21,799 bases of DNA from the IMG/VR virus record IMGVR_UViG_3300006868_000136, positions 1 to 21,799 of that record; one strand, given 5' to 3'. The position numbers were made by a program, and so were the translations under genes. The stretch's first letter is position 1. Each line of letters starts with the position of its first letter. A model generated the notes under the pieces. That model had not been told where the DNA came from, made no database searches, and saw only the letters and a list, made by a program, of their open reading frames with translations. Below are positions 400 to 19,600 of the stretch, one piece after another. The DNA is from a virus.

Positions 400-815
400 C
401 GGAAATACAAAAGCTACTAGAACGTCATGCAAAACAAACAGATTCTAAGATAGATGTTGAAAAATATCTTACAATTTGTGAACAACTAGGTCAAGAACCT
501 GATCCTGCTAAAATGCCGCTCGAACTCTCTGATTTTCCAGAGGAAGTTCAAGTGGCATTTTTTATATTAGGGCTACTACCCGATCGCTACGAAGGCATGA
601 GCGGCACTTATTTGGGAAAAGTCTGGGAAGGAATAGCATTTTTATTCGATATGTACCAAGTAGAAAATCGAACAACGGTTTTATATTTTATGAAAATGTA
701 TGAAACTATTATAGTTTCAGAAAAGTTAGATAAAGCAGAAAAACAAAGAAAACAAGCAGAGCGACAAACACAAGCAGGCGGTGGAAAAAATTACACCCAT
801 AATGTAAAAGGCTAA
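378..815 (+). CDS. T-like extension of the tail chaperone, made by -1 frameshift
   Basis: This frame is open from 378 to the TAA at 813-815, immediately after an in-frame TGA at 375-377. It has no ATG until 513 and no ribosome binding site there, as expected for a lambda T-type extension that is only made fused to G. Shifting -1 at A AAT TTT (378-384) joins residue 125 of the short form (F of ENF) to YWEQVAEIQKLLERH. The fused protein is about 268 residues if G starts at 10. The T part is about 143 residues, similar to lambda's, and ends in a Lys/Gln-rich tail (about 745-812). In lambda the T domain contacts tube subunits while G coats the tape measure. The TAA overlaps the tape-measure ATG by one base. 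A conventional gene starting at the ATG at 513 (100 residues) is the less likely alternative. Confidence 0.75.
   Translation, partial: KFYWEQVAEIQKLLERHAKQTDSKIDVEKYLTICEQLGQEPDPAKMPLELSDFPEEVQVAFFILGLLPDRYEGMSGTYLGKVWEGIAFLFDMYQVENRTTVLYFMKMYETIIVSEKLDKAEKQRKQAERQTQAGGGKNYTHNVKG
395..418 (+). promoter_or_regulatory. Candidate frameshift-stimulating stem-loop
   Basis: AGTAGC at 395-400 and GCTACT at 413-418 are perfect reverse complements around a 12-base loop. The stem begins 10 bases after the slippery heptamer and contains the TAG of the short form. It is only six pairs long and the spacer is slightly long, so its role is inferred from position. Many G/GT sites work with little or no structure. 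Confidence 0.35.
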
Positions 816-3800
816 TGGCGAAAAAAATACAAATTGATATTGAAGTCAATGGCAAAATGCAAAAAGCCACGGTCTCTGCTAAAAAGCTAGAAAAAGCTTT
901 AAAAGGAGCAGATGCAGCAACAGAAGGATTAGAAACTAGTTCTAGAAATGCTGAAAGACAGCTAAAAGGGACTGCACGTACTTCTTCAAATAGTACAAAA
1001 AACTTTTCTAAGATGGCTCAAGGCATAACTGGGGGCCTTGTTCCTGCGTATGCAACTCTTGCAGCTAACTTATTTGCATTAAGTGCTGCATTTAACTTTT
1101 TTAAAAATGCGTCTCAACTAGAAAACTTGGAAAAAAGTCAACTTTCTTTTGCACAAACAACAGGTATTGCAATGGCTTCTGTTACTAACGGATTAAGAGA
1201 AGCAAGCCAAGGAATGTTAGGTTTCAGAGAAGCTGCTCAAGCTGCTGCTATTGGTACAGCAAAAGGGTTTTCTCCAGAGCAATTAAATAAATTAGCAGAG
1301 GGTGCAATGAGAGCCTCTGTAGCTCTTGGTAGAGATTTTGCAGATGCTTTTGATAGACTGGTACGAGGCGTATCTAAAGCAGAACCTGAACTTTTAGACG
1401 AATTAGGAATTACTTTAAGACTGGAAAGAGCAACTAAAAGCTACGCAGATGCATTAGGTCTAGAAGCTAAAGCTCTAACTGAGGCGCAAAGAAGCCAAGC
1501 AGTCTTATTAGAAACTCAAAGACAATTAGATGAAATTTTTCAAAATGAAGCGGCGGCCAACCCGTTCATTAAGTTAGATAAAGCATTTGAAGATTTAATT
1601 AAGACAGTCACTCAAAAATTCTTACCTGTAATATCAGGAATAGCTGATATTATTTCTAATAATATTGCAGCTACTATTACAGTTTTTGGACTATTTTCTT
1701 TATCTATTTTAAAAGCGGCGTTTAATTTATCAGGACTTCAAGCAAAAGTTGATGACTGGGCGGCTTCCCATAGCAAGGCTGCGACTCAGGCAAAAAATGA
1801 CATGGAAGCTTATCGAACTCAAATTGAGCGTTCCGAAGCAGCCCAGAAAAAACTAAAAGAGGCCGCCAAAAAAACTCTTCAAGGATCTGCACAAAAAGCT
1901 TTAGACCAAGGCTCAAGTAGTGCATTGTTGAAAAAAGTAGCTGCAGGGGGAATAGATAGTCTTGCAAAAGTAGATCAAGCCAACTTAAAAAGATTCTTGA
2001 AAAAAGCAGAGCAAAATGTTGATGCTTCTGGTAGAGTAATGTCCGGAGTATTTAAGGGTGTACATATTTCAGTAGTTCAAGAAATGAACTCGGCGTTTGC
2101 CAAGATAGATAGTAGGGTCAAGATTACAGAAGGTCGATGGAAGTTAAGTTTTAAAAATATTCAGACGTTTGGAAAAATTATGCTGTCAGGCTTGGTAGCT
2201 GCAACCAGAACAGCTACAACTGCTATGATAAATATGGCAAATGCAGTTGGAAATGCTTTCATGAAAGTAGTAAGAATTCTATCCGTAGTTGGACTGGCTC
2301 AAATATTTGGTAGTCTTGCTATGGAGTTTACCCAAGCATTAGACGGCATGTTCAGAAAGGTAGCAAAGTTTTTTGGTATGGAAGATACCTATAAAAATTC
2401 AGACCTTGGAAAAGCTTTAGCTCAAACTTCAGTTTTAATAGAAAAACATAAAGAATTAAAATCTGCTGCAGACAGCGCAGGAGACGCTATTAAAAATATG
2501 TCGGGAGATATTGATGGAATTGTAAAAGGCATGAACAAAGTTCAAAAGCAAGGATTCAATTCATTAAAGGCAGGTGACGATAAAGATGCTTTAGAAGCTT
2601 TTGCAAAACAAGATCGTATGAGAATAACTGCCATGGCAACTCTTCCCTTAGAAAGTATAATGGAGAAAGTTACCGATATTGCCCGTATGCAGGCTAGTGG
2701 TGCAACAGACGAAGCTAACAAACTTTTGAAGAAGCTAAATCCCGAGTTAGAAAAGCTAGCCACTGTCTCTCCTAGAGTTGCTCAAATACTTCAGCAGCCT
2801 ATAAATACTTGGGCAGAATCTTTCGCAGAATTACAAAGTGCTGCAAATGATAGCTTAGGGACTTTAACGTCTTTTGAAGAACAACTAACCGGCCTTGAGG
2901 ATGCAATGCGAGATCCTAGCGATCCTGCGTCTCTTTCAATGAAAATATTACAAATTCAAAAGACACTCAAAGATGCTCAAAATAAGATAGGCCCAGGAGC
3001 TTTATCCGAAAAACTTCAAAAAGATTTAGATGCTCTCTCCGAAAAAATGGGTATGACAAACGACCAATTCTTAGCATTTGTGCAAGACGAAATTTCGAAT
3101 AGAAGAGACGCTATACGCTTGGGTAACGAAGATGCTATTAGGCGTGAAAAAACAGCAGGAATGTTAGATAGATTCGCACAGGCTAGACAAAAGTTTTTAG
3201 ACGATGAACTAGCCGCAATGGCTTCAATTGCTCTTAAAGAAAATGAATTGAGATACTTACAAAAAACTCGAGCTTTATTAAATGCAGACGAAGTAGCTGC
3301 GAGAGATGAAGTAATATATGCACTAGAACAGCAAATTGAGAAAGAAAAAGCTATTCTTGAAATAAAACAAGAACAAGAAACGGTTGCAATGAAATTACGA
3401 GACCTTGATCAACAAGCAGATTTATTGCAAAAAGAAATACAATTAACACAAGTAGCAAAAACTCTAAATGATGTTATCAGTAAGCGTCTACAGATGGAGC
3501 AAAATATTGCAGATCTTAAGGATAAGCAACTTCAAAGAGAAATAAATGCAGCAAGCAGAGAAAGAAGTCGAACTCCTATGCAGGGAGGCTTTATTAATGA
3601 AGGACTAACTCTAAAAGACCAAATAGCAGCACAGGAAGCTTTAATAGCTAGAATGGAGCAACAGTCCGCAGCGCAACTAGCAGCAAAAAATCAAGCAATT
3701 GATTTAGAATACGATCTTTTAGCGCTACAAACAGATCTTGAAGCAACAAGACTTCGACGACTAGCTTTGGAACGATCAGAAGCATTAAGACAGGATAAGC

Positions 3801-4618
3801 AAGATCCCTCTCAAGATTCTCTAGTTACAAGAACAAACGAAATGGCCGGCAGGCTAGAAACACAAGCAGACGCTTATGGAGACACTGGTGAAGGCTCTAT
3901 GAGAGATACTGCGAAAACTTTAGCAAGTTCCGAGGTGAGTGATGGACTTGCGGCTGCAAATGAACAGCTAGAGATAATGAAGCAGAAATTAAATGATACT
4001 TTTGGAGACGGTGAGTTGAATGAGTACATGGCTAATATGCCTGATACTCTTACTTCAGGCTTCACAGATGCCTTTATGTCTATTATGGATGGGACTAAAT
4101 CAGTAAAACAAGCTTTTGGCGAGATGGCAAAAGCAATGATTGCCGACATTATGAGAATAATAATTAAACTTCTTATTCAAAGAGCAATTATGGCAGCAAT
4201 GGGAATGGCAGATGGTGGAGTTGCGTCCCCAAGCGGTCCAAAGATGAGATACGGTGGAATCGTCAAGCCACGAGGTTACAGATATGGAGGCTATACAGAA
4301 GCACCTCAAATGGCAGCAATCGGAGGTGTCTTTAAAGGGCCGAATGCAGGGTATCCTGTAATCATGCACGGAACAGAAGCAGTAGTACCATTACCAAACG
4401 GCAGAGAAATACCTGTAGAGATGAAAGGTGGCGGTGGCCAAAATAATAATGTAACCGTAAATATTAGTATGGATAACTCTGGAGCTGGAAGCAGAACTCA
4501 AAGTAGCAACGGACAAGATGCAAATCAGTTAGGAACTGCAGTTGCAGCAGCGGTACAGAGAGAACTTCAAAATCAAAAAAGAGCAGGCGGCATTTTAAGC
4601 CCCTACGGAGCAGCGTAA
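815..4618 (+). CDS. Tail tape-measure protein (lambda gpH-like)
   Basis: At 1267 residues this is the tape measure, the extended protein inside the tail tube that sets its length and is thought to pass into the host at infection. At about 0.15 nm per residue it predicts a tail near 190 nm. It opens with a basic Lys/Ala-rich segment. A tape-measure-like block LGRDFADAFDRLVRGV plus PELLDELG lies at about residues 171-198. Hydrophobic stretches lie near 270-305 and 483-510, and a long Gln/Glu/Leu coiled-coil-like region covers roughly 760-1020. The C-terminus has an amphipathic helix (TDAFMSIMDGTKSVKQAF) and a Gly/Tyr-rich stretch with GTEAVVPLPNG, as in many gpH-type proteins. No lysozyme or peptidase motif is evident. 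It starts at the ATG of TAATG (813-817), coupled to the T frame, with AAAGG at 807-811. Confidence 0.93.
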   Translation: MAKKIQIDIEVNGKMQKATVSAKKLEKALKGADAATEGLETSSRNAERQLKGTARTSSNSTKNFSKMAQGITGGLVPAYATLAANLFALSAAFNFFKNASQLENLEKSQLSFAQTTGIAMASVTNGLREASQGMLGFREAAQAAAIGTAKGFSPEQLNKLAEGAMRASVALGRDFADAFDRLVRGVSKAEPELLDELGITLRLERATKSYADALGLEAKALTEAQRSQAVLLETQRQLDEIFQNEAAANPFIKLDKAFEDLIKTVTQKFLPVISGIADIISNNIAATITVFGLFSLSILKAAFNLSGLQAKVDDWAASHSKAATQAKNDMEAYRTQIERSEAAQKKLKEAAKKTLQGSAQKALDQGSSSALLKKVAAGGIDSLAKVDQANLKRFLKKAEQNVDASGRVMSGVFKGVHISVVQEMNSAFAKIDSRVKITEGRWKLSFKNIQTFGKIMLSGLVAATRTATTAMINMANAVGNAFMKVVRILSVVGLAQIFGSLAMEFTQALDGMFRKVAKFFGMEDTYKNSDLGKALAQTSVLIEKHKELKSAADSAGDAIKNMSGDIDGIVKGMNKVQKQGFNSLKAGDDKDALEAFAKQDRMRITAMATLPLESIMEKVTDIARMQASGATDEANKLLKKLNPELEKLATVSPRVAQILQQPINTWAESFAELQSAANDSLGTLTSFEEQLTGLEDAMRDPSDPASLSMKILQIQKTLKDAQNKIGPGALSEKLQKDLDALSEKMGMTNDQFLAFVQDEISNRRDAIRLGNEDAIRREKTAGMLDRFAQARQKFLDDELAAMASIALKENELRYLQKTRALLNADEVAARDEVIYALEQQIEKEKAILEIKQEQETVAMKLRDLDQQADLLQKEIQLTQVAKTLNDVISKRLQMEQNIADLKDKQLQREINAASRERSRTPMQGGFINEGLTLKDQIAAQEALIARMEQQSAAQLAAKNQAIDLEYDLLALQTDLEATRLRRLALERSEALRQDKQDPSQDSLVTRTNEMAGRLETQADAYGDTGEGSMRDTAKTLASSEVSDGLAAANEQLEIMKQKLNDTFGDGELNEYMANMPDTLTSGFTDAFMSIMDGTKSVKQAFGEMAKAMIADIMRIIIKLLIQRAIMAAMGMADGGVASPSGPKMRYGGIVKPRGYRYGGYTEAPQMAAIGGVFKGPNAGYPVIMHGTEAVVPLPNGREIPVEMKGGGGQNNNVTVNISMDNSGAGSRTQSSNGQDANQLGTAVAAAVQRELQNQKRAGGILSPYGAA

Positions 4619-7600
4619 ATGGCAGCAACAGTTTCAGCAGCAGCGCCTAGTAATCCAAGTGATGGAGATTTATGGTTTGATAGCGTAAATCTTCGAATGT
4701 ATATCTATTATGATGATGGAAATACTCAGCAATGGGTAATTACTGGCCCCACAGGATTAAAAGGTGAGACAGGAGACGCAGGACCCACAGGCCCCACCGG
4801 TACTTCAGGACCTGCTGGAGTAGCTGGACCTACTGGACCTCAAGGTCTTACAGGACCACAAGGACCACAAGGACCACAAGGACCTATTGGTATAGGTACA
4901 ACCGGCCCTCAAGGACCAGTTGGAGCTACCGGACCTACTGGGCCTAAAGGAGATAAAGGTGATACTGGGGCTATTGGATTAACTGGGCCTCAAGGACCTA
5001 TTGGACCCGATGGCCCTGTCGGGCCTCAAGGAGATAAAGGTGATGATGGCCCTCAAGGAGCTACTGGACCCGCAGGAGCTTCTGTAACTGGCCCTACTGG
5101 ACCTACCGGCCCTCAAGGACCTGCTGGAAATGATGGTGCAGAAGGCCCAGAAGGCCCTCAAGGACCTGCTGGACCTACTGGACCTACTGGACCTATTGGA
5201 CCCGCGGGACCCACTGGGCCTATTGGATTAACTGGTCCCGCCGGACCTCAAGGACCGATAGGAAATGATGGGCCTCAAGGAGATACAGGAGATATAGGAG
5301 CTACTGGACCCGCAGGACCCACGGGCCCTGCTGGACCAACTGGACCTACGGGACCTGCTGGACCAACTGGACCAATAGGAAGTACTGGCCCCGCCGGACC
5401 TCAAGGACCTCAAGGACCTGCCGGCCCAATAGGAAATGATGGCCCTCAAGGAGATACAGGCGAAACAGGAGCTACTGGACCTGCTGGACCTGCTGGACCT
5501 GTTGGTGCTACAGGAGCGACTGGACCTGCTGGACCAACTGGACCAATAGGAAATACTGGCCCTCAAGGACCTCAAGGACCTATTGGACCCACGGGTCCTA
5601 CAGGAAATGATGGCCCTCAAGGACAAACGGGTGCTCAAGGCCCTGTGGGACCTCAAGGAGAGAAAGGGGATACAGGAAATACTGGACCTACCGGACCTGT
5701 CGGACCTGCTGGGCCTACTGGTGCTACAGGTATTCAAGGCCCCGCCGGCCCTCAAGGACCTCAAGGAGCAGATGGTCTAGATGGTGCTCAAGGTCCCGCC
5801 GGACCTGTAGGATTAACAGGGCCACAAGGTAATCAAGGGTTAGGATTTACTGGAGGTAGCTATACTGCTTCAACAGGTATTGTAACCTTTAGCTCTGATG
5901 ATGGTCTAGGATTTAGTACTGCAGATTTACGCGGTGATGGGAATAGAGGTATTTCTTCAGCAATAGTAGATGTAAATGATGATTTAATTCTTACTCTCGC
6001 AGATAGTACAACTATTAATGCCGGACCGGTGGTTGGACCCACAGGAGCGACAGGAGCGACAGGACCTACCGGCCCTGCTGGTACTAATGGAACAGGGTTT
6101 ACTGGAGGTAGTTATACTGTTTCAACAGGAGTCGTAACGTTTACTTCTGATGATGGACTAGGTTTTAGCACAGGAGATTTACGTGGCGATGGAAATAGAG
6201 GTATTTCTTCAGCGACAGTAAATGCAAATGATGATTTAATTCTTACTCTTGCAGATAGTACAACTATTAATGCCGGAACAGTGGTAGGCCCGCAAGGGCC
6301 CACTGGTCCCACTGGTCCTACTGGCCCTACTGGGGCTACGGGACCTGCTGGAGCAGATGGTGCTGATGGAGTTGATGGAGCAGATGGTACTAATGGAACT
6401 GATGGCACCGGGTTTACTGGGGGCTCTTACGATATAAGTACAGGTACTGTAACATTTACTTCTGATGATGGACTAGGTTTTAGCACAGGAGATTTACGCG
6501 GCGTAAATGGAGTAGATGGTGCTGATGGTGCTGATGGTGCAAGTTCAATTGTATTTGATGTCGAGCCTACTTATACTAGTGGAACTCCTTCTGCTTTTTC
6601 TTTCTCAGGGGCAGGATTTCCCGTTGCAAGAACAAATCCTGATCTATATCTTCAAAAGGGTATAACATATTATTTTGATCCGGGTGATTTTGACAGTTTA
6701 AGTCCTATTACCAGTTCAGACGGCTGGGCCTTTTCTAGCAGTAACTATATTACTTCTGCGGATAGTATAAATGGTCAAACTTTTCCAGCCCAAGCGCATA
6801 CAGATACACAGTTTGAAGGAAACTCACAAACTACAACTCAAGGTGTTTATGTATTTACAGCTGCAGGAGCGGGAAATTATGTAAGGCTTTATACAAAAAC
6901 ATACTTTCTGTTGTCTAGTAACTGGTATAGAAAAGCTTATACAGCTTCCCCTACTTTTAATGTAAAAGAAGGATATGTACTTACTTGGGAAAAAATCAAT
7001 TCTTATCATGAAAGAACTAGTGAAAAAGAAGTACGCGCACAATTTTGGCTAGTAGATATAACAAATGGAGGCTTTTATCGAGCCTATCCTCAAAATAGCG
7101 AAGGATACTACATTGGCACGAGTAGTTCTGCTACTTCGTATAGTTATACTTTTACAACCACAGGACAGTATCGGTGGGTAGCTCTTTTAGGAGTACTTGA
7201 CCTTGGAAATAATTCAGGAGATTCTACAGAAGTCTATGCAGATTTTGGAAATTTTGAACTAAGCAGTGGACATCCTTTATGGATTCAAAGTACTTCAGGG
7301 GCTTATGATGCGGCAAATGTTTTAGGGGCTACAGATGGAGTAACAAATAATGGAGCGGATAGAGATAGGGTTTCATTTACTGTACCTTTAGATGCTCCTT
7401 CTACTCTCTATTATGTGGACGAAAACCACTCCGCAATGGCAGGAACAATTTATACGAGTGATGCAGGGTCGGGCGGCAGTAGTTCTAGCATTACAGATGG
7501 AACTAGCACTTTAGATTTTGATTCTAATAATAACTTACGGTTAGATACTCATTTCCTTCCCTCAACCAGTGTAAGTTACGATTTAGGAAGTGCTACCCAA

Positions 7601-8395
7601 AAATGGAGATATTTGTACTTAGATAATAATACCATTTTTATGGGCGATCAAACTTTAAGCACAGATTCGTCAGGACAACTTGTTCTTGGCGAAACTATGG
7701 ACTTTGGAGGTGAAGGCACAGGAGGAGTTGCTTATGTAGATTGGCAAACAGGAAATAAATTAGTTATACGAACTAATGGGCCTGGAGCTCCAACAGAATC
7801 TCCTTTTAATGAAAAATTTGCATCAATTAAAAAAGATGATTCTTTCGAGCTGCTAACTGGTGCCGCGATATCTGGTGAAACTGATGCCAACGGCAACTTC
7901 CCAGCAAATACAACATTGAAAGCAACTGGCGCTGCCACTTTTACAGCAGTAAGTTTTGCAGGAGATCCTAATTATTATTATGATTGGGAAATACCTGTTG
8001 ATACAGTGCCCGGCTCAAATGTATATGTATATACTTTTAACTTAAAACGGTCTCCAATTTCGGAAGTCACCCAAATAATTAAAGCAGGCACAACTATAGA
8101 TGCATCGGCTTTAACAGGGAATCTTCCTGCTTTAGGAATGTCAGGAAGCTTAATCCCGGATACAAATGCTCAATATGATTTAGGGTCTGCTGAATATAAG
8201 ATAAGACATTTATACTTGTCAGATAATACAATTTACTCTGATAGTGGAAATATAAAAGTAGCTCAACACCAAGCAGGAGGGGCACCCAGCACCTCTACTC
8301 GACTCATCTCTACAGCAAAGTTGAAAGAAATTGCAGCGGCTTCTCCAGATTATGGGGCTTTTCAAGCAGCTATTGCAGCTCTTGAGGATAATTAA
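4619..8395 (+). CDS. Collagen-like tail fibre
   Basis: This 1258-residue structural protein is probably a trimeric fibre. Residues 1-40 form a short domain ([13 protein letters not shown], ending QQWV) of a type often found at phage-fibre N-termini. Residues 43-408 are about 120 Gly-X-Y triplets rich in GPT, GPQ and GPA, broken only at GIGTT (91-95) and GASVT (153-157). Two 64-residue repeats and a truncated third follow (409-472, 493-556, 598-628), separated by more Gly-X-Y. The rest is Ser/Thr/Tyr-rich and looks beta-structured, with two YDLGS modules at residues 987 and 1186, and it ends in an Ala-rich helix. The start directly follows the tape-measure stop, with GGAG at 4607-4610, 8 bases upstream. 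Lambda has no gene here. Attachment to the tail tip and receptor binding are inferred from composition and position. Confidence 0.85.
4745..5842 (+). repeat. Collagen-like Gly-X-Y repeat tract
   Basis: Nine-base units encoding Gly-X-Y run for about 1.1 kb with two short interruptions. X is mostly Pro and Y is mostly Thr, Gln, Ala or Ile. Glycine and proline codons change from unit to unit (GGA, GGC, GGG; CCT, CCC, CCA), so the protein repeats more exactly than the DNA. Confidence 0.92.
5843..6034 (+). repeat. 64-residue fibre module, copy 1
   Basis: Encodes the first copy of a beta-type module beginning [12 protein letters not shown] and ending TTINAGPVV. It is nearly identical in protein to copy 2 at 6095-6286 and is followed by a short Gly-X-Y linker (6035-6094). 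Confidence 0.85.
6095..6286 (+). repeat. 64-residue fibre module, copy 2
   Basis: The second copy begins [12 protein letters not shown] and ends TTINAGTVV. Most differences from copy 1 are conservative (for example S/T, I/V). A Gly-X-Y linker at 6287-6409, later turning into GAD and GTD triplets, separates it from the partial third copy. Confidence 0.85.
6410..6502 (+). repeat. Fibre module, truncated copy 3
   Basis: Only the first 31 residues of the module are present ([12 protein letters not shown] through FSTGDLRG). It then runs directly into [10 protein letters not shown], so the second half (GISSA to TTINAG) is missing. Confidence 0.8.
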
Positions 8396-8405: not shown

Positions 8406-8933
8406 ATGGCAGCAGATTTCCCAGGTAGTCCTTCAAATGGCGATACTTATACATACAATGGAGTAACATATGTATATAATGCCGTAATAGGAGCATGGAG
8501 CATTGATCCCGGGACTGCAGGAGGGACATCCTCTTATGGAGAGATATTTATACTAAAAGTTCCTGCAGATGCTATATCTGGAGGAGTTCCTCTTACAGAT
8601 TCTTTCTATACTTTTGATAGGGGTTTAAGTAGGGCTTCAAATTTTAATATTTTGACCGCAAAATTTGGAGATGGATATGAACAAAGAGCTATAGATGGAA
8701 CAAACTCTAAAAGAGATATGTTTGGAGTATCTTTTTCTAATAGAACTAAAGAAGATATTAATCTTATAGCAAAGTTTCTAGATGTACATCAAGCAAAAAA
8801 CTTTGATATAATTATTCCAGAGTATGATGGAAATCAAACTATAAAAGTAGTGTGTGAGGGATATAATATAAAATATTTGTACCATAGTTATCATTCTCTA
8901 ACCGCAGAATTTAGACGAGTTTATGAACCATGA
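8406..8933 (+). CDS. Minor tail protein, lambda gpM-like, with extra N-terminal domain
   Basis: Residues about 80-175 match the lambda gpM family (phage minor tail protein), which sits at the tip-tube junction and is needed to start tube growth. The typical core motifs are visible: KFGDGYEQR (86-94), the NRTKEDINLIAKFLD helix and the aromatic PEYDGNQTIKVVCEGY strand pair, ending AEFRRVYEP. Lambda gpM is about 109 residues, while this protein is 175. The additional N-terminus (GSPSNGDTYTYNGVTYVYN, then W31) resembles the first 40 residues of the preceding collagen-like fibre, followed by a Gly/Ser linker. The start has a strong ribosome binding site. The stop overlaps the next start as ATGA (8930-8933), so the two genes are translationally coupled. 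Confidence 0.82.
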   Translation: MAADFPGSPSNGDTYTYNGVTYVYNAVIGAWSIDPGTAGGTSSYGEIFILKVPADAISGGVPLTDSFYTFDRGLSRASNFNILTAKFGDGYEQRAIDGTNSKRDMFGVSFSNRTKEDINLIAKFLDVHQAKNFDIIIPEYDGNQTIKVVCEGYNIKYLYHSYHSLTAEFRRVYEP

Positions 8934-11653
8934 GTCAATTTGATTATTACATTGAGTTAAATAGTCCCGGGTATGTTCCCCCGACTACAGATGTATCTGA
9001 TAACTACGCAATTATTGCAAAAGTCGGAGACACTATCAATGTACAAACAGAATACACAGGAACTGAAGGCGCTATTGTTAAAGAAATACGTTATGTACGT
9101 TCTCCTAACTCAGATCCTACAGCTAATGATCCAGATCCAGATCCTCCGTGGTTAGATCATAATGAGAAAGATAAAACTTGGACTTATACCAATTTTGATA
9201 ATAATGATCATTATGCTAGGTGGTACTTTTTTACTGCTGCAACTACGGGAAATGAGTTAACTACTAAAGCGCAAGCTTCTGTTAGAATTTTATGGCTTCC
9301 TTCTACTCTTGGCTGGGATGGTAATTCTGCAGGAACTAGTATTCTTCAGGGAGCTAGTGGAACTATTAATATATCTGCCCCTACCAGTCTTGTTCCTTAT
9401 GTAGCAGGTACTTGGACTCCTTATCATGTTTCTGATGCTCCTGTAGCTACTCCTGAAACTTTTCAGTGGAGAATTGTAAGTGGAGGCGGCTCAAATACTT
9501 TAATCGATCCTAGTTATTTTGTAAATACGAGCGGGCAAGTATCTATAACAAGCACTACTACTGCTGTACAAATTCAACCAACTGCATCGTGTCCTCCAGG
9601 AAGATATTTTCTAAAACTTCATCATTATAATACTACTCCGCAATTTGTTAATGGAACTGCTTCTGCCTCTACTACTGGGGGCTGGAATACTTTTATTGAT
9701 GAAATTACTTTTGAGGTAGAAGAGTATGTACCCCCCAATGTTGCTGCAACTGGCACAGTTACAATTGATGGAAATCAAGTAGGATTTGGATATGAGTTTT
9801 CTCATACGGAAAATATTGCAGACAGTAACGGACTAGGTACTTTTGAATATCAATGGAATAGAAACGGCTACCCCATAACAGGAGCAAATGCAGCTACATA
9901 TACAACAGTTGCTTATGACTTAGGAACTTCTTTATCTTTAACAATTAGTTTTACAGACGGAGATGGATACAGTGAGTTCATAACTAGTAATTCTCTAGCT
10001 ATTTCAGCATTTCCACCCGGAGGAGGAGACGACGAAAATACCGGCGCACCCTCCATATATTCTCTAACATTAACTCCTGATATTTTAAATTATAATGACT
10101 TTTTAGTATATAAAAAGGATGTAATTAGGGTAATTTTAGAAAATGATCCAAATGATCCGTATAGAGTAATAGATGTTATAAGTACTACAAATGCAGATGT
10201 TTCTCCCTTAACGGGAACAACTATTACTTATTTTGATATCACTTTTCTTAACAGTACTGAAGAATCAACATTCGAAGTTGAATTTAGATCAAACTCTAAT
10301 CCCACATTTAGCCCTTCTTCAAGCTATACTTGGACTATTAGTGGATATGTTCAAAAGGATGGCAGACTAAATTTAATAGAGGTAGTACAAGATCAGGATA
10401 TTGGAGATAATTTTATTGAATTATTTGAAATTCAATTACCTTCAGGAAACATGGCATTTTTGTACAATGGATTCGACGAGAGCTCTTTAGACAATATATA
10501 TTTTCCAGACTCCAAAGGATCTGTACTAAATGAATATGTAGCTATGCCTATAATGATAGAAGGTATAGATGTTAAAAGTAGCGGAGCTTCCTCAAGACCC
10601 ACTTTAACTTTAGCAAATATACCTGGAATTGCAAGAACCGTTATGAATGACGGAGATGGTACAAGAGACGAAGAATTACTTATAAATATTTTAGAGTCTG
10701 AAGGTATTTTTAGTGCTCAAGATCTAGTAGGTAGCAAAGTAACATACAGAACTACACTATTAAAGTATACTTACAATGAAGGACAGCTGCCTGAACGCCC
10801 TACAGAATTTCCAAAAGCTTCCTATTATATAAATAGAGTAGCTCAAGAAACAGGACCTTTAATGGCTTTAGAACTTGCCAGTCCTTTAGATCTGGAAGGG
10901 TTTAAACTACCTAACAGGTATATTATTGGTAAATACTGTCCTTGGAAGTATCAGGGCTTTTTTGAAAATGGTCAAGGAGGGTGCACCTTTCCTTTAAATA
11001 GTAGAGGTAACTTATTTTTTGATGAAAATGATGAGTTAATAGTAGGTGCAGCAACATTTCCTGACTGGAGCCCAACAACATCCTATGTAGAGGGCGACAG
11101 AGTAAAAACTATTACTGGAGCAAGCGCAGTATATATTCCTACAACTTATAATAGTAAAGTAGTCAAAAATGCTAATGCTGGAGATTTTGATTTATATATT
11201 GCGTACAATAGAGACTGGATGGAAGCTGACGATGCGGCACAGATACTAGCAAAAATAAATAATTATTATTTAATACCTAGTACTTTAAATTCTCCAGGTC
11301 TTGTAACTAATGTTACACTTACTCCCGGGATGACCTCTGGTAATACTGTTTTATCATATGAATATAAAATTACATTTAGTCGTGCATTTCTTGGCCCGAT
11401 ACTAAAAGGTACTGAAATAAGTTTTACTGATGGTTATAATGGAGATGGATATATAAGAATTTGGGAGGCAACTAATCCGAGCAAGGGTAGAAATCCAAAT
11501 ACTCAAAAAGGCGTTTGGAAGAGAATAGATGTTTGTGGAAAACGAGTAAACTCTTGTAAAGTTCGGTTTCAAGCAACTAGTACCCCTGGAGTTTTAGACA
11601 CTTATTTGCCTCTTCCTTTTGGCGGATTTATAGGAACAAATAAATTTAAATGA
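8930..11653 (+). CDS. Giant lambda gpL-like minor tail protein with Ig-like extension
   Basis: This 907-residue protein combines a gpL-type tip protein (about residues 477-907) with about 476 extra N-terminal residues. Lambda gpL is 232 residues and binds an iron-sulfur cluster through four cysteines. Here C670 (KYCPWKY), C685 (GGCTFP), C869 and C876 (VCGKRVNSCKVRF) match that pattern, and the family ending LPFGGFIG is present. The segment YYINRVAQETGPLMALELASPLDL is typical of the domain before the first Cys. About 183 residues separate C685 from C869, far more than in lambda. The extension includes an Ig-like repeat near residues 271-361 (EYQWNRNGYPITGANAATYT). It may decorate the tip or help adsorption, which is inference. 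ATGA overlaps join it to the genes on both sides. Confidence 0.85.
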   Translation: MSQFDYYIELNSPGYVPPTTDVSDNYAIIAKVGDTINVQTEYTGTEGAIVKEIRYVRSPNSDPTANDPDPDPPWLDHNEKDKTWTYTNFDNNDHYARWYFFTAATTGNELTTKAQASVRILWLPSTLGWDGNSAGTSILQGASGTINISAPTSLVPYVAGTWTPYHVSDAPVATPETFQWRIVSGGGSNTLIDPSYFVNTSGQVSITSTTTAVQIQPTASCPPGRYFLKLHHYNTTPQFVNGTASASTTGGWNTFIDEITFEVEEYVPPNVAATGTVTIDGNQVGFGYEFSHTENIADSNGLGTFEYQWNRNGYPITGANAATYTTVAYDLGTSLSLTISFTDGDGYSEFITSNSLAISAFPPGGGDDENTGAPSIYSLTLTPDILNYNDFLVYKKDVIRVILENDPNDPYRVIDVISTTNADVSPLTGTTITYFDITFLNSTEESTFEVEFRSNSNPTFSPSSSYTWTISGYVQKDGRLNLIEVVQDQDIGDNFIELFEIQLPSGNMAFLYNGFDESSLDNIYFPDSKGSVLNEYVAMPIMIEGIDVKSSGASSRPTLTLANIPGIARTVMNDGDGTRDEELLINILESEGIFSAQDLVGSKVTYRTTLLKYTYNEGQLPERPTEFPKASYYINRVAQETGPLMALELASPLDLEGFKLPNRYIIGKYCPWKYQGFFENGQGGCTFPLNSRGNLFFDENDELIVGAATFPDWSPTTSYVEGDRVKTITGASAVYIPTTYNSKVVKNANAGDFDLYIAYNRDWMEADDAAQILAKINNYYLIPSTLNSPGLVTNVTLTPGMTSGNTVLSYEYKITFSRAFLGPILKGTEISFTDGYNGDGYIRIWEATNPSKGRNPNTQKGVWKRIDVCGKRVNSCKVRFQATSTPGVLDTYLPLPFGGFIGTNKFK

Positions 11654-12342
11654 TAGATGAAATACAAGAACATTTTGCAAAAGAATATCCTAAAGAAGGC
11701 TGCGGAATTATAGGAATTGTTGAAGGAAAAAAACAATGGTTTCCCTGTAAAAATATTGCTACAAATAATCAAGATTTTATAATGTGTTCAAAAGATTATT
11801 TAAATGTAATTAAAAAAGCAGATATTTTAGGAATAGTTCATAACCATATAAATACTAGTAATGAACCTAGTGAATCTGATATAAACGGATGTAACAGTAC
11901 GGGAATACCTTACTATATTTTTGATTCGGAAATGAATTTAAATATAGTAGAACCAACCACAAAAGCATTTCCTTTAATAGGTAGAGAATATAAATTTGGA
12001 GTAATGGATTGTTTCGAAGCTATTAGAGACTATTTAAAAACTCAAAATATAGAAATCCCTCCTAGAGCTTTGTTTGAAGAAAATTGGTGGAAGAAAGAAG
12101 ATTTAAATTATTTTACTGATGATATGGCAAAGCAATGGGGAGGAAAACGCGTAGATAAAAAAGAATTACAGATAAATGATGTATTAATTTTTCAAATGGA
12201 GTCAGATGTACCAAATCATTGCGGAGTTTATATAGGCAAGGATATGTTTTTTCACCATGCAGTACATCGTCTTTCTTGCCGAGAATCTTTGTTTCCAAGA
12301 TGGGCCCCCACAATTGTAGGAGTTTATAGATATGATGCGTAA
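11650..12342 (+). CDS. Tail tip peptidase, lambda gpK-like (JAMM + NlpC/P60)
   Basis: This 230-residue two-domain protein matches lambda gpK, which acts in tip assembly and may cut cell-wall peptides at infection. Residues 1-110 form a JAB/JAMM metalloprotease-like domain with E16 and the zinc motif H64-x-H66-x7-S74-x2-D77 complete. Residues 111-230 form an NlpC/P60-type cysteine peptidase domain with C121 after Asp, H190 in NHCGVYIG, and further His at 202-203 and 206. Both active sites look intact, so a catalytically active protein is likely. It starts inside the L stop (ATGA, 11650-11653) and its end overlaps the I-like gene by 11 bases. An N-terminal deubiquitinase-like fold is normal for this family and does not imply a ubiquitin system. 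Confidence 0.92.
   Translation: MIDEIQEHFAKEYPKEGCGIIGIVEGKKQWFPCKNIATNNQDFIMCSKDYLNVIKKADILGIVHNHINTSNEPSESDINGCNSTGIPYYIFDSEMNLNIVEPTTKAFPLIGREYKFGVMDCFEAIRDYLKTQNIEIPPRALFEENWWKKEDLNYFTDDMAKQWGGKRVDKKELQINDVLIFQMESDVPNHCGVYIGKDMFFHHAVHRLSCRESLFPRWAPTIVGVYRYDA
12318..12322 (+). promoter_or_regulatory. Ribosome binding site deciding the gpI-like start
   Basis: AGGAG lies 9 bases before the ATG at 12332 and 12 before the ATG at 12335. The first ATG (reading MMRK) is therefore slightly favoured over the second (MRK). Both lie inside the end of the K-like gene. Confidence 0.5.
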
Positions 12343-13184: not shown

Positions 13185-16100
13185 ATGCCAGATGGTATCG
13201 GGGGTGCGAATTACCTATTTAATTTAGGTATTGGCGGACCAAATAATTCAGGTAATGTAAATCAAACAGAAAGAGTATTTACTCAAACTGGGTCAGGCAC
13301 AGTAATACAAAATATTTCTATTACTGATGCTATATGTGAAGGCCCAGTAGCAGGTTTGGTAAATGGAACAGGGTCTATTTATTTTGATGATGTTCCTGTA
13401 AAAGATGCAAAATATTTAGGATATATTCCTCCCCAAGGAGTATTAGGCTCCGCTATAGATCCTAGTACTAGAATTGCATTTTCTGGTAAAAATGGAACTT
13501 TATCAAGTGGGAGTACGCTACCAGATTATATGATTGATACCAGTACCGGAGATTACTATGCAACCGGAAAAAGTATAATTTTATTTGATTATTTATTCGT
13601 AGATGACTTAGATATTACATCTACTGTAAGAGATGCAAATAATCAAGTAAGAATTACAGCTGATGCAGCAAATAATTTAAGCGGAGATATACAAAGGTGG
13701 ATTACCTTAAATGATGAAAATTCGCGCGCCTTTTTAGTAGCAGCAGATGCTGGTAGTGTTATGGGGGGCCAGACTGTATATGCTATTGCAAATACTATTA
13801 TATTTGAACCAAAAAATCCTTATGTTGCCATTTACCCCCAAAAGTATAAACTATTTATTGCTAAAAAGTTTGCTCTTGCTAGTATTCCTAACAACAAAAG
13901 TGTTGTAACCGAAAACGAACCACAACCAGGAAATTATATATTTTCAATTACAAGCTCTCTTCAGTTTAATTTCGAAGAAGAATCCCAGATAGAATTACCA
14001 GATGAAGTTACTGTAGACGATGCACCAAATTATTTATTGCCCGACGAAAAAGACGCTTGGGTAGACTACTATAATCGACAGTCTGGAGGCTGGAGAACTG
14101 CGGGTAATTTTTTAAAAGTAGAAGGGCTTTATTCGCAAGAACGTAGGGGCTATTTGATACAAGAGCCTTTATCAGAAGTAGGCACTGTAGGGGCGGCCGT
14201 AGTTACAGAAGGAAATTTAGGAGGAATTACCACAGACTTAAAAATATTAGCCCCAGATCCTAATAATCCTACTCTTTCAGACTACGGCAAAAATACCAAT
14301 GAATCAATAACAATTTTTGATATACACGGGCTTCCTAATATCGATCCAGAAAATGGATATGTAAATAGAACAGGGTTAGGTCAGCTGGAGTTAAACGCAC
14401 ATACTGTAAATAATCCTACAGATATTCCATCAAGTGCTTTTGCAAATAATGCAAAAATAAACGAAATGGATCAAATTTCTTTAATGATTACCTACCCTCA
14501 AGGATTACATACAATGAATCAAGAGGATGGAAGTCTATTGACTTGTTATGCTATATACAAATTTAGAATAAAATTTACAACAAATGGAATTACAGGACCT
14601 TGGGTTGATTTATTTGGAAATTCTGTTAGACATTGGGGAAGAACAAGAGCAGGAATTTCTTATGAACATATTATAGACTTAGAAAGTTTCAGACCTTTTG
14701 ATACTTTTGTACTACAAGTAGCTAGACAAACTAGAAGTGCAGGGCTACCTGTTTACTCAACTGGAAGATCGGCAGGCAGTGAAGATGATAAGACAGACTA
14801 TTATACGGTTGCAGAATCGGTAATTAGTAAAATTCAATGTGTCATAAAAGATAAATTCACCTACCCATACACAGCACTAGTAAATACAATTTTTAATTCT
14901 AAACAGTATAATAAAGCTCCCAGAAGAACTTATGAAATGCGCGGAATGTTAGTAAAAATTCCCGAATCTTACACTCCTCGGGAGTACTCTCATACGGGCA
15001 AAGCCGAGTATGAAAATTTTTGGGGAGGAAACTTTAAAAAAGTTTTACACTATACTGATAATCCTGCTTGGTGTTTTTATGATATAGTAACAAATAATAG
15101 GTATGGTGCCGGACAGTACATTTCTGAGTTTGATATCGATAAGTACTCTTTATATAGAATTGCTAGATATTGTGATGAGCTAGTAGGTACAGGTAAAATT
15201 GCAGGTTTTACTAGTTTTAAAACAGGAGAGTTTTATAGAATTAAAACAACAGGAGCAATACCTTGGACAGACATAGGAGCTCCTGATGGAAATGTGGGAA
15301 CAGAATTTAGGTACATACGTCCTACAGATAGCGCTCCTTCTGATATGGAAGGAACGGCAGAATTATTAGAACCTCGGTATAGAATGAATGTACTTCTTAC
15401 TAAGCCGATCGAAATTTATAAAGTATTGAAAGATATGGCAACCAATTTTGCCTCTATAATTTATTGGCTAGACGGTCAAATAAGTTTAGTACAAGATGTT
15501 CCTTCTGATCCCGTTTATAACTTTACAAAAGCTAATGTTATTGATGGGCGTTTTGCGTATGAAGGAACTCCTGAGAATACAAAATTTAATCAAATAATTG
15601 TAACTTGGAATGACCCTGCTGCAAACTATGAGCTAGTCCCTCTACTTATAGAAGACAAATCAGATATTGCAAAAACTGGACAAATTAGGACAAAAGAAGT
15701 AGTAGCCTTTGGTTGTACTTCTGAAAGTCAAGCAATACGAATGGGAAAGTGGAAACTATGGACGGCACAGAATCAAAGAGAAGTCGTTACATTTAAGACG
15801 TCTTTTGGTAGTGCTTTCATAAGGCCAGGGGACGTAATAACAGTACAAGATGGAGATCGATATGGAATTTCGTATGGCGGAAGACTTAGTAGTGGAGGGA
15901 CTCTTAATTCTTTAGTTTTAGACAGAGAGATAACTTTTAATTCTACAAGTGACTATGAAATGTACCTAGTAATTACAGAGCCCGCGGCTTTTTATACCGG
16001 AGCTCAATCAATTGCTATAAATGGAACAACTTATAATACTAACGATAGAATACCAGAAGCTTATGTTTTTAATGGCAAAGACTATATTTTAACAAGTCTA

Positions 16101-16682
16101 GATAGTGAGAGTAAAGCTTCAAATGCATTTTCTAGTTCTGCTGGAGATACATTACTTCAAATGTCTTGGCATTCTGCAACTTATGTGCAAAAAGTAGATA
16201 TAACTAACCCCGGGACAGTTACAACATCGTCCATTAACTTAGCTAGTAGTTTAGATAAGGTTCCTCGAGCAAATTTAATTTGGTCTATACGAGAAATAAA
16301 TTCAGACGGGGCCGAAATATTAGGGTCAGCAAAAACGTATAAAGTTTTAGATATAGCAAAAGAATCTAAAAATATATTTGCTGTAACGGCCGTGGAGCAC
16401 TATAATCAAAAATTCGGAGAAATAGAAAAAGAATATGACTTAGGAGCTATACCCCCTAGTGCTTATGCAGAAAAAGAGCCTGATGTCATTCCTTCAGTTA
16501 AAAATCTGCACGCCTCATTTGAAGGCCCTCAAGCTACTCCATTCTCTGAAATTTTATTATCGTGGGATAGACCAGAAAATGACGAATGGATTAGTCATTT
16601 TGAAATAGTACATACTGCAGATACAGTAGTGTCTCCTGTAACCACCACAGAAAAGTCAATAAACTTTCCAGGATTTGATTAA
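13185..16682 (+). CDS. Central tail tip protein, lambda gpJ-like
   Basis: This 1165-residue protein matches the J family (lambda 1132 residues), the trimeric central tip that nucleates tail assembly and contacts the receptor. Supporting blocks are ISITDAICEGPVAGLVNG near residue 45; RTYEMRGMLVKIPESY and FWGGNFKKV...TDNPAWCFYDIV...NRYGAGQ at about 580-645; PRYRMNVLL then WLDGQISLVQD at about 725-770; and FIRPGDVITVQDGDRYG near 880. A foreign-looking module (FKTGEFYRI, then WTDIGAPDGNVGTEF) is inserted at about 674-722, where lambda J has only a short loop. The last 65 residues are the first half of a fibronectin-III domain that ends abruptly after NFPGFD; the rest appears in the next gene. Without its continuation, J lacks the long C-terminal host-range region of lambda J. 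Confidence 0.9.
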   Translation: MPDGIGGANYLFNLGIGGPNNSGNVNQTERVFTQTGSGTVIQNISITDAICEGPVAGLVNGTGSIYFDDVPVKDAKYLGYIPPQGVLGSAIDPSTRIAFSGKNGTLSSGSTLPDYMIDTSTGDYYATGKSIILFDYLFVDDLDITSTVRDANNQVRITADAANNLSGDIQRWITLNDENSRAFLVAADAGSVMGGQTVYAIANTIIFEPKNPYVAIYPQKYKLFIAKKFALASIPNNKSVVTENEPQPGNYIFSITSSLQFNFEEESQIELPDEVTVDDAPNYLLPDEKDAWVDYYNRQSGGWRTAGNFLKVEGLYSQERRGYLIQEPLSEVGTVGAAVVTEGNLGGITTDLKILAPDPNNPTLSDYGKNTNESITIFDIHGLPNIDPENGYVNRTGLGQLELNAHTVNNPTDIPSSAFANNAKINEMDQISLMITYPQGLHTMNQEDGSLLTCYAIYKFRIKFTTNGITGPWVDLFGNSVRHWGRTRAGISYEHIIDLESFRPFDTFVLQVARQTRSAGLPVYSTGRSAGSEDDKTDYYTVAESVISKIQCVIKDKFTYPYTALVNTIFNSKQYNKAPRRTYEMRGMLVKIPESYTPREYSHTGKAEYENFWGGNFKKVLHYTDNPAWCFYDIVTNNRYGAGQYISEFDIDKYSLYRIARYCDELVGTGKIAGFTSFKTGEFYRIKTTGAIPWTDIGAPDGNVGTEFRYIRPTDSAPSDMEGTAELLEPRYRMNVLLTKPIEIYKVLKDMATNFASIIYWLDGQISLVQDVPSDPVYNFTKANVIDGRFAYEGTPENTKFNQIIVTWNDPAANYELVPLLIEDKSDIAKTGQIRTKEVVAFGCTSESQAIRMGKWKLWTAQNQREVVTFKTSFGSAFIRPGDVITVQDGDRYGISYGGRLSSGGTLNSLVLDREITFNSTSDYEMYLVITEPAAFYTGAQSIAINGTTYNTNDRIPEAYVFNGKDYILTSLDSESKASNAFSSSAGDTLLQMSWHSATYVQKVDITNPGTVTTSSINLASSLDKVPRANLIWSIREINSDGAEILGSAKTYKVLDIAKESKNIFAVTAVEHYNQKFGEIEKEYDLGAIPPSAYAEKEPDVIPSVKNLHASFEGPQATPFSEILLSWDRPENDEWISHFEIVHTADTVVSPVTTTEKSINFPGFD
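16670..16673 (+). promoter_or_regulatory. Ribosome binding site for the second fibre gene
   Basis: AGGA lies 8 bases before the ATG at 16682, inside the end of J. It supports real initiation at the TAATG junction and argues against a single gene broken by a sequencing error. Confidence 0.5.
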
Positions 16683-19600
16683 TGTCAGAAGAAATTACAT
16701 TTAAAGTAAGAAGTGTTTCTCATAAAGGAAACTATTCTGAATTTAAAACAGTACGGATAAATAGAGATGGGCAAAAGTTTACTCTTATAGGCCCTCGTAT
16801 TCATGATGGTATGCCCAAAGGTGCATATGCTAGTTTTAATGCAGATACAGTCAATTCCTTTAGAGCCGATGAAACTCAAAGTACAGAGGAAGGAGCAGGA
16901 GATCCTGTATCTAGTAGGTATAGGGGTTTAATAAATTGGCCTTTCTTAAGAGATTTAGTAGCAGAGTTATATCCTGACGGCTGGACTTATGAAGGAACCG
17001 TTTTAAATCCTCAACCTACAGAAGATTTTGACGAATTTGATTACACTTTTGAAAGCTATCCTGTTAATATATCTTCAATAGTAAATCCTCAAAATGCAAT
17101 CACAGTATCAGAGCCTCAAGTAGTAAACTTAGATGGAGTAGTTCCTGACGAGACACGCGAACTTTATATACTATTTCAAGCGCAGTATAGAACCATTCAT
17201 TTAGTGGAGTGGGACAAACATGCAATGCCAACATTACCGTTTTGGAGATTTATGGGGGATGGCACGCGTGCTATGGATCATAGCAGTAATTGGCTTAGCA
17301 TTGGAAATGTTGCGGTATCAACTGACGGTATAATGACAGGTTCAGGGTTTAGACAATCTCTTAAAGTTAATGATACTGTAACTTTTCCTGTAGGCTCTAT
17401 TAATGACGAATACTTAGGATTAGGGGCCAAAGTAATAGAAATTAACAGTGATACCCAAGTTACTTTAGATCGTTCTTTTGAAACCGAACTTCAAGTTCAA
17501 GCAGCTTATAGAGCTGTTTATCGTCCTAACTATTCTAATGACGCTGTTCTTGCACAAGTTCTTAGAGGTCCTGATGGGCCACCTTACGTATTAAACTTTA
17601 TACTAAATCGTTCCTTTATAGGCGCTGTTTCTAATTTAAATCCTCAGCAGCAAGCAGAAACAGGAACAAGTGATGGAATTACAATAAATGGTCCAAATGC
17701 CGGAATTGACGTAGCTGGAGGAAGTATTCGTGGGGGAATGACTGATTACGGTGTTGGTACCGGTTTTTGGTTCGGCGTAGATCCTACAGACGGTTTACAT
17801 AAAGTAGCTATAGGAGATCCAGCAGCAGGAGACTTTATAACTTACGATGGTACAGACATTAATTCTAAAATGAATAATTTAGAATTAAGAGGCTGGCTAA
17901 GAGGTCCTGCTAACTTTGTAATTGACCCAGCAGTTCATGGAGACGATACGGGTACTGTAATTATTGCAGGAAATTTACAAGTAGATGGTACTACAACAGA
18001 AGTAAATAGTACTATTATGACTGTAGACGATAAAAATATAGTTCTTGCAGATGGTGCAGGAAATGCTGCAGCAGCACAAGGAGGAGGTATTACTCTTGAC
18101 GGAGCTTTTGCAGCAATTCAATATAATATTGCTTCTTCTTTACCAGATGGATCTGGAGGTACGGGGCCTGCATGGGAATCTAATATTCAATGGACAGTTG
18201 CTGATGGTCTATCTGTTTATGGCTCTACTCATTTAAGAGAAAATGTTTTACTTGGAACTTCTTCTACCGATGTAGTTACTTTTAATGCGGAAATTGAAGA
18301 AAATTTAATTCCTACTACAGCAAATAGTTATGATATTGGTAGTTCAGCTAAAAGATGGGGAGAATTATTTGCAAACGCCGCAGATATAGGAACAGGAGGA
18401 CTGAAAGTAGCAGGAGGTTCTAGCACTCAAATTTTACAGCATGATGGTACAAAATTAAGCTATATTGATTATACGTTAGAAAGTTTAACAAATGTTTCTA
18501 CTGGGGCTACCGCGAATAAACTTTTAAAATATGATGGTACAAATTGGGGTCCTGGAACAGTAGCATTTTCTGACTTAACTAATACTCCCACAACTTTAGC
18601 AGGTTATGGGATTACCGATGCTGCTACCGCAGCTCAAGGAGCAAAAGCAGATTCCGCAGTACAGCCGGGGGATAATGTTTCTGTTCTAGCTAATGATGCA
18701 AACTATGTTACTTCGACCAGCCTTCATGCAGTAGCCACAAGTGGTAATTATAGTGATTTAAATGGTACTCCAAATCTTCATGCAGTAGCAACATCAGGCT
18801 CTTATAATGATTTAATTAATAAACCAAGCATACCGACAAAAACTAGTGATTTAACAAATGACTCTGGGTTTATTACAAGTGCACAAATACCTAGTGATGT
18901 TAGTGATCTAACTGATACTACTAATTTGCTTTTTTCAGGCAACTATAATGATTTAAGTAATAAACCAACTATACCTACAAAAACTAGTGACTTAACTAAT
19001 GATTCAGGATTTTTAACTTCAGGGAGTTTTGCAACTGTAGCTACTACAGGTAATTATAATGATTTAAGTAATTTACCAAGTATACCTACAAATAATAATC
19101 AATTAACAAATGGTGCGGGGTACCTTACAGATGTATATACAATTAATGGAAATTCTATAATAGGAACAGGTAACTTAAATGTACAGGCTACTCTTGACGT
19201 CGCAGGACTTACTGATGTAACAATAACAAGTATTCAGTCCGGTAGTTACCTTTTCTACCAAGGGCCCACAGGAGGCTGGGTAAATGCACAGCCAAGTATA
19301 GCTACCTTTAATGATGTAGCATATAGCCCTAACCCTCCAGCGACAGATAATGAATTACTGCTTTGGGATACTACAGCCGGAGAGTGGCAAAATAAAGCTT
19401 TTAGTACTTTTAACTTAGGAGATCTAGGGGATGTTAGTAGTAATGTTCCTTTTTCTTCTGACTCTGTTTTAAAATGGGATGCCACAAATAGTGAGTGGGA
19501 ACCTCAAATGCTTTATCTATTTAACTTAGCAGATACGGCAGTAGGAGGTAGATCAAATGGCGATGTATTAACTTGGAGGTCTATAGACAGCAAATGGGTG

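Follow-up and report, generated by a model that had tools for sequence, protein, structure and literature searches.

The hub protein gpL of phage lambda has 232 residues and starts directly at its core. In contrast, gene L of the viral sequence studied here encodes 476 residues ahead of the core, which raises the question of what this N-terminal arm is, how it came to stand in front of a tail hub and what it does there. The sequence, hereafter the window, is a stretch of 21,799 nucleotides (positions 1 to 21,799 of IMG/VR record IMGVR_UViG_3300006868_000136). An earlier note, made from the sequence alone, had proposed that a tip protein had gained an adhesin-like arm. We find that the long chain of immunoglobulin-type domains at the front end of L is a real added part, carried by uncultured lambda-like viruses, and that it probably helps the tail tip to hold its fibre or to touch the host cell.

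The gpL core and its junction with the arm

Gene L is a single open reading frame of 907 aa that spans arm and core (Table 1). It matches the Pfam family Phage_tail_L (PF05100; 67.4 bits against a cut-off of 25, E 1.4e-18, best match at aa 595–676) and PHROG 18, a minor tail protein (E 2.1e-32, aa 534–701), so that, as the earlier note had it, only the second half of the protein bears the gpL signature. The core sets in at about residue 478. By sequence, aa 477–907 match four PDB chains (E 2.7e-10 to 1.6e-4), namely hub gp21, the T1 minor tail protein (9l9p), F2-pyocin BHP and, at E 1.6e-4, lambda gpL. The modelled HDI domain (aa 493–659) superposes on lambda gpL (8iyk_L) with a Z of 12.0 and an rmsd of 3.1 over 132 residues, and the fold matches of the core also include T1, Chi, JBD30, GTA and R4C chains. 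Lambda gpL and its homologues (T1 gp36 and the Chi, JBD30, RcGTA gp13 and R4C hubs) share the HDI fold and four cysteines. In L, the corresponding C670, C685, C869 and C876 are invariant among 41 aligned L proteins; gpL holds an Fe-S cluster (PMC10721106), and by analogy these four residues are its expected ligands. L also lies between M and K in the tail operon, as gpL hubs do. It shows every gpL feature that could be tested (profile, HDI fold, cysteines and position), and we file it with the gpL hubs. The gene order H-M-L-K-I-J is common to lambda and the window, except that the window, unlike lambda, has a fibre gene between H and M.

Table 1. Positions of gene L, its parts and its neighbours in the window
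Feature	Position	Strand	Remarks
Gene H	815-4618		Neighbour in lambda order
Collagen-like fibre gene between H and M	4619..8395	+	1258 aa; Pfam Collagen, 189.6 bits
Gene M, distal tail protein with N-terminal extension	8406..8933	+	PF05939
Bead-like N-terminal extension of M, about aa 1-36	8406..8513	+	Resembles N-terminus of fibre protein; hhalign 2.1%
Gene L, hub/minor tail protein L with N-terminal arm	8930..11653	+	907 aa; PF05100 and PHROG 18
Arm domain D1, aa 1-125	8930..9304	+	Beta-rich, no named relative; pLDDT mostly 39-67 per 10-residue block; boundaries approximate
Arm domain D2, aa 126-265	9305..9724	+	Beta-sandwich; fastest-changing arm domain; boundaries approximate
Ig-like domain, aa 266-367	9725..10030	+	Related by sequence to phage decoration proteins
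Arm domain D4, aa 368-476	10031..10357	+	Beta-sandwich in model; adjoins core
gpL core, aa 477-907	10358..11650	+	HDI domain, four-cysteine domain, stretch between cysteine pairs
C670, C685, C869, C876	10937..11557	+	Codons at 10937, 10982, 11534, 11555; expected Fe-S ligands by homology
Stretch between cysteine pairs, aa 690-862	10997..11515	+	Longer than in armless L019
Gene K, downstream neighbour in lambda order	11650..12342	+	JAB and NlpC/P60

The stretch between the two cysteine pairs is much longer in arm types A–C than in the armless relative L019. The R4C hub likewise has extra sequence between its two ion-binding segments, in the form of an oligosaccharide-binding domain (PMC10276861); the passages of that report consulted describe no N-terminal arm on it.

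We collected 60 viral loci with relatives of L and the best 80 of 572 matches to a core profile, two sets that overlap. Counting identical cores once, and leaving out matches of fewer than 250 profile positions and 5′-open frames lacking an arm match, gave 99 distinct core sequences. Their sampling is uneven, some relatives having been sought with the arm as query and only the best 80 of 572 kept. Within this set, 82 cores are armless, 11 carry the window-type arm and six another arm. In the armless proteins (290–496 aa, the shortest interrupted by a contig end) the core begins fewer than 30 residues from the start codon, which indicates that the arm is an addition, made in frame just behind the start codon of an otherwise standard gpL hub as the earlier note supposed, or else reflects a loss at that site. 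Complete matches of the armless relatives to the window L begin at residue 481–489, and their start methionine aligns with residue 477–479; the figure of about 476 extra residues is therefore accurate to within a few. The ends of M and L overlap by the four bases ATGA in the window, and this overlap is shared by window-type (10/10), arm-E (5/5; see below) and armless cores (56/79) with M present, so the arm sits behind an unchanged M/L start junction.

Could the long frame be an artefact, in which faulty assembly or sequencing joined two genes and a free L protein in fact starts near 10358? A separate start of this kind, which the earlier note had named as the finding that would overturn its reading, is absent. 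No in-frame ATG, GTG or TTG occurs at codons 437–507, and the first start codon past the joint is codon 508 (ATG at 10451), inside the HDI domain; a free L from an internal start is thus ruled out. Moreover, 20 further contigs, of four sequence types, have arm and core in a single frame. Nothing was observed in favour of such an artefact, and we regard it as vanishingly improbable.

Every frame that matches the arm profile in the loci collected also contains the core, and across 12 whole records the profile gives one match each in seven and none in the five that have arm E or no arm. The possibility that the arm is a common domain of cultured phages was rejected: a tblastn search with the window arm at E ≤ 1 picked out 68 phage records among 50,697, and the 20 of these that were listed all fall within residues 257–376, the Ig region. 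Neither the D1-D2 arm of L075 nor arm E matched the phage records at E ≤ 0.1. In 84,980 bacterial and archaeal genomes, 13 stretches fitted the search patterns and none was a relative of the arm; because the collection scans were seeded by two short peptide patterns, arms that have diverged or stand free of a core may have escaped them. Among 40 matches listed of 318, the best E-value of a cultured relative belongs to Synechococcus phage S-CBS4, in which the tape measure gene, the minor tail protein gene and a gene for a 465-aa L follow each other directly.

Several relatives of the core are unusual in other respects. The pattern-led scan of the 84,980 genomes gave one core relative, a 405-aa L (L161:4995-6212) on a 16-kb contig of a Euryarchaeota MAG, which represents either a true host or misbinning. 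In L147 (4974-6140) gene L lies in two frames, of 75 and 262 aa, through gene damage or sequencing error. Finally, L118, L128 and L143 encode L proteins of 479–493 aa with a normal start and apparent extra sequence inside the first part of the core, which seems to be a further place where the hub takes up sequence.

A modular arm and a second arm at the same site

The window-type arm is a modular chain. In the window its order is D1-D2-Ig-D4, and its types are nested: D1-D2 in L075 and L076 (261 aa), D1-D2-D4 in L014, L016 and L018 (380 aa), and the full D1-D2-Ig-D4 in the window (476 aa) and L012 (481 aa). The earlier note had observed several strands rich in threonine, serine and tyrosine; over the whole arm Ser+Thr+Tyr amount to 28.8%, against 19.5% in the core, a contrast equalled or exceeded in 8 of 10,000 label shuffles.

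The note had also proposed at least one Ig-like domain in the first half, and sequence comparison bears this out. Residues 293–367 match the PDB chain 5lxk_A, a ‘Decoration protein’ that we take to be T5 pb10, at E 7.7e-5, and a second decoration protein was matched as well. Searched alone against PHROGs, aa 1–476 gave three matches, at aa 264–356, 265–354 and 290–337 (E 2.5e-5, 2.1e-4 and 0.0045), of which the one at aa 265–354 is the Hoc-like phrog_4069. Decoration domains of the T5 pb10 and Hoc-like type sit on the capsid, whereas the Ig-like domain of the window is part of a tail hub protein. It is the sole arm domain with named sequence relatives. D1, D2 and D4 have none in Pfam, PHROGs or the phage records, giving only a few weak PHROG matches, mostly of unknown function, and hhalign comparison of D1–D4 with each other detected no sequence relation (probability up to 3.8%).

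Structure prediction of the first half, which the earlier note had suggested, adds further beta-sandwich domains to the Ig-like one. The AlphaFold2 model of L (41 sequences) has a mean pLDDT of 61.2 and a pTM of 0.34. The best-modelled part of the arm is D2 (pLDDT 62–92 per block at residues 121–230), and most of the HDI core is also well modelled; confidence is poor to middling for D1 and D4 (36–61 per block in D4) and very low for the Ig region (below 50 over aa 268–395). The fold matches of D2 and D4 are beta-sandwiches of a generic kind, such as the macroglobulin domains in complement and TEP proteins and an S-layer domain; at a Z of about 7.5–8.6, they suggest a common arrangement only.

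Many phage Ig-like domains may be neutral or stabilising decoration, and the arm as a whole could be of this kind, its domains coming and going free of any specific task. The absence of the Ig-like domain from types C and D, the absence of D4 from type D (L075) and the decoration proteins among the PDB relatives of the Ig domain are in keeping with this explanation. Against it, D1 and D2 are kept in all complete-arm types, with invariant residues across copies that are 41–44% identical, and selection on all four domains is purifying in the single pair compared, the window and L012 (dN/dS 0.14 in D1, 0.42 in D2, 0.13 in Ig and 0.12 in D4, with 0.10 in the core). The arm is thus maintained coding sequence, and we consider its being mere decoration improbable. 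In two type-C pairs dN/dS is 0.25–0.29 in the arm and 0.16–0.20 in the core. Types A and C share 41% identity over D1-D2, as against 52–72% over parts of the core, K, I and the beginning of J. From these rates, D2 appears the best candidate for an exposed, variable contact surface.

The earlier note had further asked whether relatives carry different N-termini on the same L core, and they do. Besides the window-type arm, L095, L099, L121, L152, L154 and the fragment L096 carry arm E, of about 290 aa, which does not match the window-arm profile. One site on the core has thus taken up two arms that are, by sequence, unrelated. The model of arm E (mean pLDDT 68.7) comprises a jelly roll set within a sandwich domain, the latter formed by aa 1–75 and a last strand before residue 288. 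In fold the sandwich is similar to the N-terminal domain of peptidylarginine deiminases (Z up to 10.0), and the jelly roll resembles, among others, the hyaluronan-binding module 4d0q (Z 8.7), with weak Foldseek matches to CBM modules (E 0.01–0.1). In hhalign comparisons the first arm-E domain reached 20.1% with D4 and 30.2% with D3, D4 scoring no better than D3, and arm E reached 0.9% with the fibre tip.

Arm E bears on the main rival account of the window-type arm, that of a self-standing adhesin whose Ig-like and sandwich domains would make weak, reversible contacts with glycans of the host surface and have no need of the fibre. A second arm at the same site, with a modelled sandwich, a CBM-like jelly roll (from weak matches) and no fibre gene before M, would suit such an adhesin, as would the faster change of D2 relative to the other domains; a possible role in adhesion has been suggested for the Ig-like domains of phage tails (PMC10721106, citing Fraser 2006). 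On the other hand, the top matches of the first arm-E domain, ranked above the module matches, are to the peptidylarginine deiminase domain, and the folds listed as matching D2 are sandwiches of a generic type, with macroglobulin and S-layer domains at a Z of about 8.

Fibre gene, M bead and neighbouring genes

The window-type arm keeps constant company. In all ten window-type cores with M present, M carries the bead (10/10) and the fibre gene or its end stands directly before M (10/10): six have the collagen part in frame before M, and four have the end of the fibre gene, the rest being cut off where the contig ends or the frame breaks. Fibre gene before M and M bead are both absent from the arm-E cores (0/5) and the armless cores (0/78) with the upstream gene present; in these 83 cores (0/83) the tape measure gene H runs straight into M. 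The counts are drawn from the collection that includes the best 80 of 572 relatives. Since arm E occurs without the fibre gene before M and without the bead, an arm does not need a fibre. That the window-type arm is never seen without both, in the ten cores with M present, argues against the fibre-independent adhesin, an account that we consider possible but doubtful.

The M bead itself resembles the N-terminus of the fibre protein. In 12 pairs, the bead and the first 45 fibre residues align with scores of 38–53 (shuffled means 24–28) that were reached by 1–57 of 2000 shuffles, and the N-termini of four control M proteins did not exceed chance against the fibre N-terminus. The bead is also like the C-terminal end of the fibre, to a smaller degree (4–136 of 2000 shuffles), which we count against the relationship, and hhalign gives the bead and fibre N-terminus only 2.1%. 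Homology of these short stretches is plausible. Comparison of the arm domains with the fibre tip by hhalign gave no convincing link.

A tree of the cores, from which the truncated L009 was left out, puts the carriers of the window-type arm in two places, requiring two changes, with L075 and L076 beside the arm-E clade (98/96). An AU test did not reject a single clade (p-AU 0.152). The joint occurrence of arm, fibre and bead therefore amounts to at most two independent observations, and may reflect common descent rather than function. Recombination at the arm/core joint is not claimed, as the AU test allows one clade.

Other genes of these tails vary in their own ways. The fibre tip of the type-C L016 is 79% identical to that of L075 and 46% to that of the window, against the relations of the cores, and so may be exchanged on its own. 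Gene J of the window is split into J1 (13185-16682) and J2 (16682-20362) by a TAATG stop/start overlap, the split lying at 16560-16760 inside an apparent FN3 domain. The second frame has the same start in type B (L157–L160 and L169) and type C (L171), and J is unbroken in L075. Only one codon ahead of its ATG is open in this frame, which makes a frameshift between the two frames unlikely and a coupled split gene the likelier case. Gene K encodes 103–107 aa in L075 (6072-6395), L095 (6005-6316), L099 (6032-6343) and L121 (2510-2821); scanned in L075 and L121, this short K matches a JAB domain only, while the window K has JAB and NlpC/P60.

The arm and the tail tip

The earlier note was right in seeing an added arm with at least one Ig-type domain on L. 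Its view of this arm as surface-exposed and adhesin-like, and of the tip protein as essential, is a proposal only. It did not connect the arm with the fibre gene and the M bead, and these suit a component of a fibre apparatus no less than they suit a free adhesin. We favour, at a probability of roughly one half, the view that the arm is one component of an adhesion apparatus, built around the fibre, at the M/L ring. In lambda, three gpL HDI domains belong to the ring stacked on the gpM ring (PMC10721106), and the N-terminal helix of the T1 gpL homologue extends upward as far as the distal tail protein (PMC11945409). On this view, a lambda-type hub L would have received the beta-sandwich chain D1-D2-Ig-D4 in frame behind its start codon. 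Should L form a trimer, as lambda gpL does, three arms would stand on the tail tip beside the ring of M and, by analogy, leave it next to six M beads. The beads would most likely anchor the collagen-like fibre; the arms may line or brace its base and make weak side contacts with the fibre or the cell surface, with D2 as the putative variable contact domain.

More speculatively, and with rather less confidence than we give to a fibre-based apparatus, we conjecture that gene L of uncultured lambda-like phages takes up adhesion modules, in the form of unrelated arms, at its start as at a plug-in site, and that the window-type arm, the collagen-like fibre gene and the M-bead anchor form one co-dependent cassette that makes the M/L ring a side-fibre dock. 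Our literature search found no description of such a dock. Nor did it find, in a body of papers that included few behind subscription, an N-terminal arm on gpL or the association of such an arm with fibre gene and M bead, and we regard the joint occurrence of these three as new.

The armed L is a new variation on familiar phage parts and not a new kind of system. Phages with Ig-like domains on their tails are well known. Added domains, Ig-like in one case, have been reported as a focus of hypervariability in the Jersey and LSH1 hubs (PMC13243795); there they occupy N-terminal extensions of gpJ and the C-terminal region of gpL, and variability at these two places is thus already in print. In the window the addition is at the N-terminus of gpL, which also accepts large additions. 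The lambda and T1 tip structures come from laboratory strains that lack visible side fibres (PMC10721106, PMC11945409), so that the attachment of side fibres to lambda-like tips is hard to see in them. A natural set of phages that carries a fibre gene, an M bead and an L arm supplies concrete pieces with which such a dock may be tested.
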